DNA of 41,449 bases from positions 1 through 41,449 of the forward strand of contig CALGFJ010000029.1 in assembly GCA_937881055.1 (NCBI GenBank), read 5' to 3'. Both the position numbers and the translations under genes were made by a program. Below are positions 19,322-41,449 of this stretch, piece after piece (position 1 is the first letter of the stretch; every line of letters begins with the position of its first letter). This DNA is from an uncultured Acidimicrobiaceae bacterium (GTDB lineage: Bacteria > Actinomycetota > Acidimicrobiia > Acidimicrobiales > RAAP-2). The notes below the pieces were generated by a model, which worked only from the letters and a program-made list of their open reading frames with translations, searched no databases and was not told the origin of the DNA.

Positions 19322-19555
19322 GTGCGGGGTCTCATCGAGGCGTTCGATGACCGTCGTGGTGACGGGGCGGTCCGCACCGACGATGGTGAGCGACTCTACT
19401 TTCATTGCGTCAACATCGCCGACGGTTCACGGAGCATCGCCTCGGGCACGCTCGTCTCGGTGCGTCGCGGTGTCGGACATCTCGGCCACGACGAAGCACT
19501 CGAGATCGTCAAGGAGCCGCACGGCGACGAGGGGAACTTCGATGCAGACCACTGA
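19322..19555 (+). CDS. Small cold-shock-domain-like protein
   Basis: GLIEAFDDRRGDGAVRTDDGERLYFHCVNIADGSRSIASGTLVSV resembles CSD RNP1/RNP2 layout; immediately downstream of ribH. Confidence 0.6.
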   Translation: MRGLIEAFDDRRGDGAVRTDDGERLYFHCVNIADGSRSIASGTLVSVRRGVGHLGHDEALEIVKEPHGDEGNFDADH

Positions 19556-19579: not shown

Positions 19580-19990
19580 CTAGGCCGTCGTCGTGGTGAC
19601 CGCCGTCTTGTGGCCCGGTTTCACGGGCGGATTACCGAGTTGGGTGAGAGAGTTCGAGCGAGCGATGGTCGCCTCGGTGACGGCAAAGCGATAGGTCGCT
19701 CGAGCACTGATTCGCTGACTCGAGTTCAGGGCTCCGCTCAGAGATGACGCCAGATTCAACTTGGCCGTGGCGACCGCAGCGAGAAAGGTCAGATTGATCA
19801 CCTTGCGCTGGGCCAGGTAGAGCTTGTCGGCGGCGCGGTACTGCTTCATGGTGGTGATGACCGGCGTTTTGGCGACGATGGTCGTCGTCGTGGTCGTGGT
19901 GGTACCGGCGAGGGCCAGGGCGGGAGTGCCGAGCGTGAGCGTCGCCAAGATCGCCACCGAGGCGATGGTGCGCTGAGCGATGCCTTTCAT
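19580..19990 (-). CDS. Secreted Thr-run protein, single copy of a ~70-aa repeat (uncharacterised)
   Basis: Signal peptide MKGIAQRTIASVAILATLTLGTPALALA, then a poly-Thr run, a helical Ala-rich domain ending LGNPP and C-terminus VTTTTA; SD-like GGAAGG. Confidence 0.8.
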   Translation of the reverse strand: MKGIAQRTIASVAILATLTLGTPALALAGTTTTTTTTIVAKTPVITTMKQYRAADKLYLAQRKVINLTFLAAVATAKLNLASSLSGALNSSQRISARATYRFAVTEATIARSNSLTQLGNPPVKPGHKTAVTTTTA

Positions 19991-20017
19991 TGTCGACCCT
20001 TCCAAAGGAACAACCAA

Positions 20018-20073
20018 ATCGTACCGAGCAAACCTTTGAATTTCCTGTGAATTGAATGTATTTCAGTTGTGAT
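20018..20073 (-). promoter_or_regulatory. Candidate PhoP/OmpR-type operator and promoter of secreted gene 1
   Basis: Minus strand: TCACAAC-N4-ATACATT-N4-TCACAGG-N4-TCAAAGG on an 11-bp ladder, then TACGAT (20018-20023) as -10. Confidence 0.6.
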
Positions 20074-20160
20074 GAACTCACGTCCCACGCTCCTCGCGTT
20101 GGGTTGCGGCACTTTCGGCGCGTACGTCGCGTGCACGGTGAAGCGACGGTACGCACATGA

Positions 20161-20198
20161 CAATCGGCGCGCTACTCGCGAGAGCAGCGCGCCGATTG
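20161..20198 (-). terminator. Perfect 13-bp inverted repeat downstream of the second secreted gene
   Basis: caatcggcgcgct (20161-20173) / agcgcgccgattg (20186-20198), 12-nt loop; no clear U tract. Confidence 0.6.
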
Positions 20199-20213
20199 GG
20201 GCGAATCGTGTGA

Positions 20214-20906
20214 CTAGGCAGTGGTGGTCGTAACCGGCACTGTGGTCGTCGTCGTGGTCGTGGTGCCACCCGATGCAGCCGGGGGCGGTCCAAGGGCAAC
20301 GAGGGCCGCGGCGCGAACAACCGCCGCGTTGGCAATCGCCAGTTCCAGCGTCGCACGAACGACGGCACGCTCAGGAGCGGTCGTGGCGTTCGGGAAGGCC
20401 GCAGCGAACGCTGCATCAGCCGCCGCTACCGAGTTGCGGTAGGTCTGGTTGATCGCCTGGAGAGCGACGATGTACGCCGAACGGGGCGTACCGGCCGGAG
20501 GCGCCGGAGGAGCACCGAGCGTGGTGAGCGCCGTGGAACGGGCTTCCATCGCGTTGGCGATCGACAGCGTCAAGGCAGCACGGGCCGCGGCACGGGCCGC
20601 TTGGCGGTTCTGTGAGCCCTTGGAAGCCCTGATGGCCGCCCAGTACTCTTTGCGCGCGGTGTCGACCGTCGCCCTAAAGGTGCGGTTAATCACCTTCAGT
20701 TGGTCGAGGTAGGCGTCTTCAGCCTTGCGCCACTGCTTCCACGCATCCTTCGCGACGTGAATCGTCGTGGTCGTCGTGGCAATCGTGGTTGTGGTGGTTG
20801 GAACGGTCGTCGTCGTAGTGTCCGCAGACGCAATCGCCGGGGCACTCATGCCCAGGGTTGCGAGAATGGCCACTGCCACGACGCTTCGTGTACTGAACTT
20901 CTTCAT
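20214..20906 (-). CDS. Secreted Thr-run protein with two copies of the ~70-aa repeat (paralog of 19580-19990)
   Basis: Signal peptide MKKFSTRSVVAVAILATLGMSAPAIASA, TTTTT runs, repeats ending LGAPP and LGPPP, C-terminus VTTTTA; SD-like GAAAGGGG. Confidence 0.82.
   Translation of the reverse strand: MKKFSTRSVVAVAILATLGMSAPAIASADTTTTTVPTTTTTIATTTTTIHVAKDAWKQWRKAEDAYLDQLKVINRTFRATVDTARKEYWAAIRASKGSQNRQAARAAARAALTLSIANAMEARSTALTTLGAPPAPPAGTPRSAYIVALQAINQTYRNSVAAADAAFAAAFPNATTAPERAVVRATLELAIANAAVVRAAALVALGPPPAASGGTTTTTTTTVPVTTTTA
20280..20486 (-). repeat. Second ~70-aa protein repeat of the two-repeat secreted protein
   Basis: PRSAYIVALQAINQTY...LGPPP, parallel to AEDAYLDQLKVINRTF...LGAPP (20505-20723) and AADKLYLAQRKVINLTF...LGNPP (19625-19834). 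Confidence 0.7.
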
Positions 20907-20934
20907 ATGGACCCCTTTCAAAGGAACGAGACCA

Positions 20935-20990
20935 ACTGTAAAATTCAAGTTTTTGAAAACCCTGTGAAGTGCTTGTTTATTCGCTGTGAA
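20935..20990 (-). promoter_or_regulatory. Candidate PhoP/OmpR-type operator and promoter of secreted gene 2
   Basis: Minus strand: TCACAGC-N4-AAACAAG-N4-TCACAGG-N4-TCAAAAA on an 11-bp ladder, then TACAGT (20935-20940) as -10; same spacings as at 20018-20073. Confidence 0.65.
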
Positions 20991-21060
20991 GTTCGTCCGT
21001 GAACAACTCCTCATCAAGGGCCATAAGTGGGCGATACGCTCACAAGATGCGAGCAACGCC

Positions 21061-21750
21061 ATGACGAAGGTCTTGATCGTCGACGACGAGCCCGGAGTGC
21101 GCGATCTGCTTCGCGACGCCCTCGAGGTCGCCGGGTACGAGACCGAATCGGCGTCCAATGGCGCCGAGGCCCTTGACCTACTGCGGCGACACGACTGTGA
21201 CCTGTGCATCGTGGACATCAACATGCCCACGATGGACGGGTTCGAGTTCCTCGCCAAGCTGCGCGAACACGACACCAAGACCCCGGTCCTGATGCTCTCG
21301 GCGAGGGATTCGCCCGTCGACGTGGCCAAGGGGCTGCGCTACGGTGCCGACGACTACGTACGCAAGCCCTTCAGCCTGGAGGAGATTCTGCTTCGGATCA
21401 CGGCAATCCTTCGTCGTTCCCACGCGGAATCAACCGACGACCTCATCCTCACGTCGGGTCCGATCGAGATGAACGTCGACACTCACGAGATCACGGTCGA
21501 CGCGAATCCGATCACCCTCTCGGCGACGGAGTTCCGACTCCTCGAGGTCCTGCTCGAGCGCAAGGACCGTCTCGTCACGCGAGAACTGCTCCTTCGCGAA
21601 GTGTGGAACATCGATTTCGACTCTGAGACTTCGGTGCTCGACACCTATATCTCGTACCTGCGACGAAAGATCCACCACGATGATTTCGCGCCGATCACCA
21701 CGGTGAGGGGAGTCGGCTTCAAGCTCGTCACGTGGACCGCGGGAATGTGA
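21061..21750 (+). CDS. OmpR/PhoP-family response regulator
   Basis: LIVDDEPGVRDLL, IVDINMPTMDGFEF, ARDS...GADDYVRKPFSLEE, winged helix ending SYLRRKI...TTVRGVGFKL. Confidence 0.93.
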   Translation: MTKVLIVDDEPGVRDLLRDALEVAGYETESASNGAEALDLLRRHDCDLCIVDINMPTMDGFEFLAKLREHDTKTPVLMLSARDSPVDVAKGLRYGADDYVRKPFSLEEILLRITAILRRSHAESTDDLILTSGPIEMNVDTHEITVDANPITLSATEFRLLEVLLERKDRLVTRELLLREVWNIDFDSETSVLDTYISYLRRKIHHDDFAPITTVRGVGFKLVTWTAGM

Positions 21751-23096
21751 AGATTGCCACTCGACTGACGATTCTCCTCATCGTGCTCACGACGATGGTG
21801 GCGTTCACGGTCGGATGGTTTGCGGTGGACGCCAGTACGCGATCGCTCTACTCCGCGCTCGACGCTCAGATCAACTCGGTGATTCGTAGCGGCGCCGGCG
21901 ATCCCAACAACGCGCTCACGAATGCGCTCAACGTCGTCCAAGAGAACGGGTACCCCCTGACCCTCGACGTCGTCGATCCTTCGGGTGCCGTCGTTCAAGT
22001 CAATACCCCCGACGAGCCGCTTCGAAAAAGGCCGACTCGACAGAACGTCCACGCGACACTCGCCAAGGTGGGCACCCAGTCGAATCTGCCCGGGTTTCAA
22101 CTTCGTTCGATCTACGTCGGTGGTGGAGACTATTTGATTGTCGCGGGGTCTACGAGTGCCATTACCCAACAGGGGCGTCGGCTCGCGCTCGAGGTGGCGT
22201 TGGCCGGTTTCCTCGTCGCCGTGGTCATGTTGGTCCTCGCGCGCTTGGTGATGCGTAAGGACCTTCGCACGATGGAACACCTCATCGACTTCGCCAGTGG
22301 CGTCGCCGGCGGCGACGAGCGCGGTCAGATTCCTCCGAGCGCGGGCAGTCGCGACGTCCGCGAACTCCAGGCCGCCCTCGCCACGATGGTCATCGCGCTG
22401 CACGAGCGCATCGCCATCGAAGCACGGAGCGTCGAAGCGATGCAACAGTTCGTGGGCGACGCATCGCACGAACTGCGCACGCCGCTCACCGTCATCAAGG
22501 GCTACAACGAATTGCTGACCAATCCTTCGATCAATGAAGAGCAGCGTGCGCGGGCCGTCGAGCGCGTGCGCCGCGAGATTGACCGCATGGACCTCTTGGT
22601 GGCGGACTTGCTCCTCTCGGCCGAAGTTCGAGAAGCACCCCAGCACCTGAATACGCGGGTGGAGCTCAGTGCGCTGGTCGAGTCGCGCGTCGAGGAGTTC
22701 CGCAACGACCACCCCGAACGAGTCGTGACCCAAGAGACGACTGACGGTCTCGTCGTTCGGGGGCGCGATGACTTGTTGGATCGCCTTCTGGTGAACTCAT
22801 TTTCCAACGTCGTCCGTCACACGCCCGGCGACACCGCGGTTCGCGTCACGCTGCGACGTGAGGACTCGACGGCCGTGTTGTGCGTGGAAGACGCCGGTCA
22901 GGGACTGCCGGAATATGGAGTGCGCCCGCAGCGCTTTCGTCGTTTCGACCAATCTCGCTCGCGCGAGACCGGCGGTTCCGGTCTCGGCATGAGCATCATG
23001 GCCGACATCGCCGAGGGGCTCGGTGGCTCGATGTCGACCTCCAAGAGCACCCTCGGCGGCCTCGCCTTGACGTTCACGTTCGCGCTCGAAACCTGA
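21747..23096 (+). CDS. Membrane sensor histidine kinase
   Basis: Two TM segments flanking an extracytoplasmic domain; HAMP-like region; H-box FVGDASHELRTPLTVIKGYNELL; GSGLGMSI; GTGA overlap with the RR. Confidence 0.93.
   Translation: MKIATRLTILLIVLTTMVAFTVGWFAVDASTRSLYSALDAQINSVIRSGAGDPNNALTNALNVVQENGYPLTLDVVDPSGAVVQVNTPDEPLRKRPTRQNVHATLAKVGTQSNLPGFQLRSIYVGGGDYLIVAGSTSAITQQGRRLALEVALAGFLVAVVMLVLARLVMRKDLRTMEHLIDFASGVAGGDERGQIPPSAGSRDVRELQAALATMVIALHERIAIEARSVEAMQQFVGDASHELRTPLTVIKGYNELLTNPSINEEQRARAVERVRREIDRMDLLVADLLLSAEVREAPQHLNTRVELSALVESRVEEFRNDHPERVVTQETTDGLVVRGRDDLLDRLLVNSFSNVVRHTPGDTAVRVTLRREDSTAVLCVEDAGQGLPEYGVRPQRFRRFDQSRSRETGGSGLGMSIMADIAEGLGGSMSTSKSTLGGLALTFTFALET

Positions 23097-40603: not shown

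Positions 40604-41449
<846 letters not shown>

Follow-up and report, generated by a model that had tools for sequence, protein, structure and literature searches.

Pho boxes take the position of the -35 element. PhoB acts at tandem 11-nt units and contacts the sigma subunit (PMC4415409). The site of Mycobacterium tuberculosis PhoP is TCACAGC-N4-TCACAGC (PMC4832192; Protein Data Bank codes 3r0j and 5ed4), and the bases are contacted by Asn212, Val213, Glu215, Ser216, Tyr217, and Tyr220 (PMC4832192). In Escherichia coli, the small exported helical protein CpxP is encoded beside the OmpR-family two-component system CpxRA; it is made under CpxR control and inhibits CpxA (PMC4985592). Spy is an envelope-stress chaperone under Cpx/Bae control, which is likewise small, basic, alpha-helical, and exported (PMC8144458).

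The locus described here resembles each of these systems in part. It shares with M. tuberculosis PhoP/PhoR the OmpR/PhoB architecture and the best PDB sequence match, with a recognition helix that resembles that of PhoP, and with the PhoP sites the 7-bp half-sites, the 4-bp spacer, and the tandem extension. It differs in that the predicted targets are orphan exported proteins and in that the genome contains only two strict sites; the relationship is a likeness rather than an established orthology or kinase pairing. As for PhoB at pho boxes, tandem 11-nt direct repeats are found in the -35 position, but the half-site is TTCACAG, and none of the sites examined belongs to a phosphate gene. As in the case of CpxP, a small exported helical protein is encoded beside an OmpR-family two-component system and is probably its main target, although there is no sequence relation and no detected fold relation to CpxP. 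The proteins resemble Spy in being small, basic, alpha-helical, exported, and, by prediction, under two-component control; in contrast to Spy, they have no match to its family and carry duplicated hairpin repeats and Thr-rich tails. A search of the open-access literature found no paper that describes this module.

Results

The window, the whole stretch of DNA that was analyzed, is contig C29 (41,449 nucleotides) of a 2.29-Mb genome that is about 92% complete and consists of 341 contigs. The nearest named entries are Acidimicrobiaceae/Acidimicrobiales metagenome bins, several of which carry a palsa or bog label. Two genes on the minus strand, one behind the other, encode the exported proteins P1 and P2; the genes of a response regulator (RR) and a histidine kinase (HK) are oriented divergently from them. 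Start codons were picked partly by hand, and the features are located as follows.

19580..19990, minus strand: P1, exported one-repeat protein of 136 aa, with a signal-peptide-like N terminus, a Thr run, and one helical-hairpin repeat ending in LGNPP
20018..20073, minus strand: P1 promoter, candidate site array; TCACAAC (from 20072), TTCACAG (from 20051), TTCAAA (from 20040), 11 nt, and the -10-like TACGAT (20023-20018)
20214..20906, minus strand: P2, exported two-repeat protein of 230 aa, with two predicted hairpins and disordered Thr-rich ends
20935..20990, minus strand: P2 promoter, candidate site array; TTCACAG (from 20990), TTCACAG (from 20968), TTCAAA (from 20957), 11 nt, and the -10-like TACAGT (20940-20935)
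21035..21040, plus strand: likely -10 element (TACGCT) of the RR/HK promoter; complement AGCGTA, at a near-fixed position in 54 of 60 loci
21061..21750, plus strand: RR, OmpR/PhoB-family response regulator of 229 aa, with Response_reg and Trans_reg_C domains
21747..23096, plus strand: HK, sensor histidine kinase of 449 aa, with HisKA and HATPase_c domains and an extracytoplasmic domain

Domain matches and coordinates agree with an earlier note on this DNA, in which the same four genes were placed here, with RR and HK coupled by GTGA and divergent from two exported paralogs. The GTGA at 21747-21750 is the overlap of the RR stop and the HK start, and in most relatives too HK starts 1 base ahead of the RR stop codon. 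The surroundings, which had been described as otherwise housekeeping, are indeed so by their translations: genes of riboflavin synthesis flank the locus at one end, and infC/rpmI/rplT-like genes at the other. A small plus-strand ORF at 19322-19555, upstream of the 3' end of P1, has a sub-threshold match to a cold-shock domain. At the end of the window, a 16S rRNA gene (40607-41449, plus strand) continues past the last position.

By its domains, RR is a member of the OmpR/PhoB family, with a receiver (Response_reg, E 1e-34) that carries the phosphoacceptor Asp52 in DINMP and a winged-helix Trans_reg_C domain (E 3.5e-23). Its top PDB sequence matches are chains of M. tuberculosis PhoP. The recognition helix begins at residue 191 (SVLDTYISYLRRKI), and the positions that correspond to the base contacts of PhoP in helix alpha-8 are occupied by Ser, Val, Asp, Thr, Tyr, and Tyr, so that three of six are identical and three are conservative. 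The name PhoP-like, used in the earlier note, suits this apparent resemblance to M. tuberculosis PhoP in DNA recognition; as a statement of descent it goes too far. RR reaches no NCBIfam equivalog cut-off. The genome encodes further OmpR-family regulators, two of which share YLRRK, and one of these might bind the repeats described below, with the adjacent two-component system being a mere neighbor. Against this, the adjacent RR has the PhoP-type contact set, which is absent from all nine of the other OmpR-type regulators with which it was compared in this genome. The regulator is present twice in each of two relatives (G035 and G070).

HK carries both catalytic domains, HisKA and HATPase_c. 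In the N-terminal part, long helices flank an extracytoplasmic domain of some 110 aa, for which helix and strands are predicted in a PDC/CACHE-like topology. In a Foldseek search, the best match of this domain was to WalK, in an integrative model (E 1.3e-5); ligand-binding domains of the chemoreceptor type came next, and the match to the periplasmic domain of CpxA (8uk7) was weak (E 0.098).

As judged by alignment of their repeats, P1 and P2 are clearly homologous, in keeping with the paralogy proposed before. The P1 domain is 44% identical to the first repeat of P2 (E 9e-18), and the two repeats of P2 are 42% identical to each other (E 6e-14); these alignment scores were reached by none of 1,000 shuffles. 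The conserved core of the family is a basic repeat of the helical-hairpin kind, about 70 aa long, that ends in LGxPP and is present once in P1 and twice in P2. P1 matches the profile of the exported family with an E value of 3.4e-39. Export is predicted by eye from the signal-peptide-like character of the N terminus rather than by a signal-peptide predictor. An AlphaFold model of P2 based on 16 sequences (mean pLDDT 74) contains four confident helices, at residues 53-95, 101-130, 141-173, and 177-205, which pair into two hairpins; the ends are disordered. With the mature form taken to begin after a fixed cut of 28 residues, the exported protein is net basic in 52 of 56 loci. Of the original description as Thr-run repeat proteins, the repeats are conserved. 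The Thr runs come and go across the 56 orthologous loci while the core stays, being long mainly in the clade of the window and short or absent in many relatives, and they were rejected as a hallmark of the family. In the clade of the window, a second, one-repeat gene lies behind the first and has its own site array.

Searches of P1 and P2 against Pfam and NCBIfam gave nothing above cut-off, and there was no significant PDB match by sequence. The predicted fold of P2 gave no Foldseek match in the PDB with E <0.001. The CpxP/Spy (LTxxQ) family in particular gave neither a family-model match nor a fold match (Pfam, NCBIfam, PDB fold), and plasmid copies of P2 were looked for with no match. Two candidates were rejected: the acid-shock protein Asr, for which P2 scores 20.2 bits against an NCBIfam NF033636 cut-off of 50 bits, probably through composition, and TraM, a weak match of P1/P2 below cut-off.

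Conserved co-occurrence in relatives, one of the tests that the earlier note had set for its proposal, was clearly found. Among 99 congeneric genomes, RR (scored at E 1e-50) is present in 77 and the exported family in 80; both occur in 75, RR only in 2, the family only in 5, and neither in 17 (Fisher p 7e-13, with relatedness not corrected for). The sources are mostly metagenome assemblies, and the related sequences are not independent. One of the two RR-only genomes is without the exported gene (G119), and in the other (G088), which retains the operator, the contig stops a short way off. A divergent exported gene that starts 103-180 bp from the RR start is found in 56 of 60 fetched RR loci; the exceptions are an irregular start (L067), two cut or gapped loci (L071 and L084), and one locus without an exported gene (L116). 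Among 296 genomes of the class, matches to the exported family occur only in this genus and in one genome of another genus of the same family.

The matching multi-site arrays reported upstream of both paralogs are present, with half-sites at 0, +22, and +33 followed by 11 nt and a -10-like hexamer. The series is TCACAGC/TCACAGG/TCAAA for P2 and TCACAAC/TCACAGG/TCAAA for P1. In 48 non-redundant orthologous intergenic regions, the next half-site after TCACA is 11 bp away in 27 cases, 33 bp in 15, and 22 bp in 13. For the 27 pairs at 11 bp, the dinucleotide-shuffle mean is 0.085, and TCACA occurs 77 times on the strand of the secreted gene and 5 times on the opposite strand, so that the array is not a product of chance. 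The composite of TTCACAG-N4-TTCnCA, 11 nt, and a -10 element TAnnnT was counted where it scored 13 or more out of 16. This score is reached in 47 of 56 promoters and in 0 of 1,120 sequences obtained from these regions by mononucleotide shuffling. The exact composite is missing in nine loci; L095-L101 and L085/L094, for example, contain TCACAG with other spacing or a low score. The gap from the repeats to the TAnnnT hexamer, assigned as -10 by conservation alone, is 11 nt in nearly all loci. The predicted site is situated where a -35 element would be, as for an activator of the OmpR/PhoB type.

The locus is set among conserved housekeeping genes, and gene order might be conserved in such a syntenic region without any regulation, the repeats being incidental promoter sequence. 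We regard this as very improbable indeed, because the strand-specific 11-bp period and the 11-nt gap to the -10 element are kept across divergent sequence, and similar sites recur at unlinked loci. The half-site sequence, the 11-bp period, the position relative to the -10 element, and the recognition helix of RR support the suggestion of a PhoP-type site, and a strongly conserved site at the right place in the promoter of the exported gene indicates that the regulator would switch this gene on.

Genome-wide scans were performed with consensus patterns rather than a full position matrix. The strict scan of the 99 genomes gave 39 sites compared with 2 for the controls. Module genes account for 35 of the 39, with 34 sites within 2.5 kb of RR and one in G077, where the contig is broken and the site adjoins the exported gene; no clear exported gene follows the sites at G104:C10, G075:C19, and G016:C10. 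In the genome of the window there are exactly two strict sites, at P1 and P2. Strict sites occur in 31 of the 77 genomes with RR and in 1 of the 22 without, and thus follow the adjacent regulator, which makes binding by another OmpR-family regulator improbable.

A relaxed scan of the genome of the window (G000) gave three further places, on contigs C256, C95, and C61. The relaxed PhoP-type site at C256:16783-16799 precedes a sugar-binding-protein gene (Peripla_BP_4) by 71 bp, and the one at C95:21992-22008 lies 82 bp ahead of a short exported ORF that is truncated where the contig ends. The relaxed sites at C61:3223 (unclear ORF) and C312:5588 (inside a coding region) were not counted as targets. 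In G071, an exported gene with a DUF5666-like match below the Pfam cut-off lies next to the module, 914 bp from the RR start, with TTCACAG-N4-TTCACAG upstream, and in G009 one site is found 40 bp before an exported-protein gene. Upstream DNA was readable for seven unlinked two-repeat paralogs in relatives; TCACA-N6-TCACA occurs in five of these upstream regions (L007-L011) and a partial pair in one more (L014). Because sites occur at unlinked paralogs and at other exported-protein genes, the predicted regulon is not confined to the P1/P2 locus. It appears to be small and devoted to exported proteins, which is the part of the proposed self-contained local regulon that stands; self-contained is too strong a word.

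The near-invariant divergent placement of the exported gene by the two-component system, together with co-loss, favors feedback on the kinase. Here the exported protein would bind the extracytoplasmic domain of HK and damp it, as CpxP does CpxA, whose periplasmic domain the sensor weakly resembles; the divergent pair would form a closed loop, with protection being secondary. However, the exported proteins, mostly about 20-40% identical across loci, diverge faster than the N-terminal region of the kinase, which is mostly 43-85% identical. The paralogs also multiply and move off from the two-component system, and a CpxP/Spy family match is absent. Fast divergence and unlinked copies favor an output role, and we hold CpxP-like feedback to be possible, though doubtful.

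Discussion

The homology, gene order, co-occurrence, and the grammar and position of the operator are read directly from the DNA. We consider it probable that RR/HK and P1/P2 form a dedicated envelope-response module, in which sensing leads to RR acting at the repeats, with P1 and P2 as main targets and envelope effectors. From the families to which its domains belong, HK would sense an extracytoplasmic cue via its PDC/CACHE-like domain and phosphorylate RR. The sites and the example of M. tuberculosis PhoP suggest that RR would oligomerize head to tail on the TTCACAG direct repeats, which are spaced by 11 bp. Because the repeats stand in place of a -35 element, with 11 nt separating them from the -10 element, RR most likely recruits RNA polymerase at the target promoters in the manner of PhoB. 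The main targets, P1 and P2, which are basic and predicted to be exported, are most likely envelope stress effectors with a role comparable to that of Spy; we infer this role, the weakest step of the proposal, from charge, predicted helices, and analogy.

A more far-reaching reading, which we think unlikely, is that these hairpin-repeat proteins constitute a new exported family, specific to the lineage, that would both protect the envelope and set kinase activity, an independently evolved CpxP-type loop on a PhoP-type regulator in actinobacteria.

With the proposed envelope-response module, a little-known peatland genus gains a predicted circuit that leads from sensor to output and whose binding sites follow a precise grammar, and a testable role is attached to an exported protein family that is absent from the searched libraries. 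If the feedback reading is true, the locus would represent a convergent CpxP-like loop.
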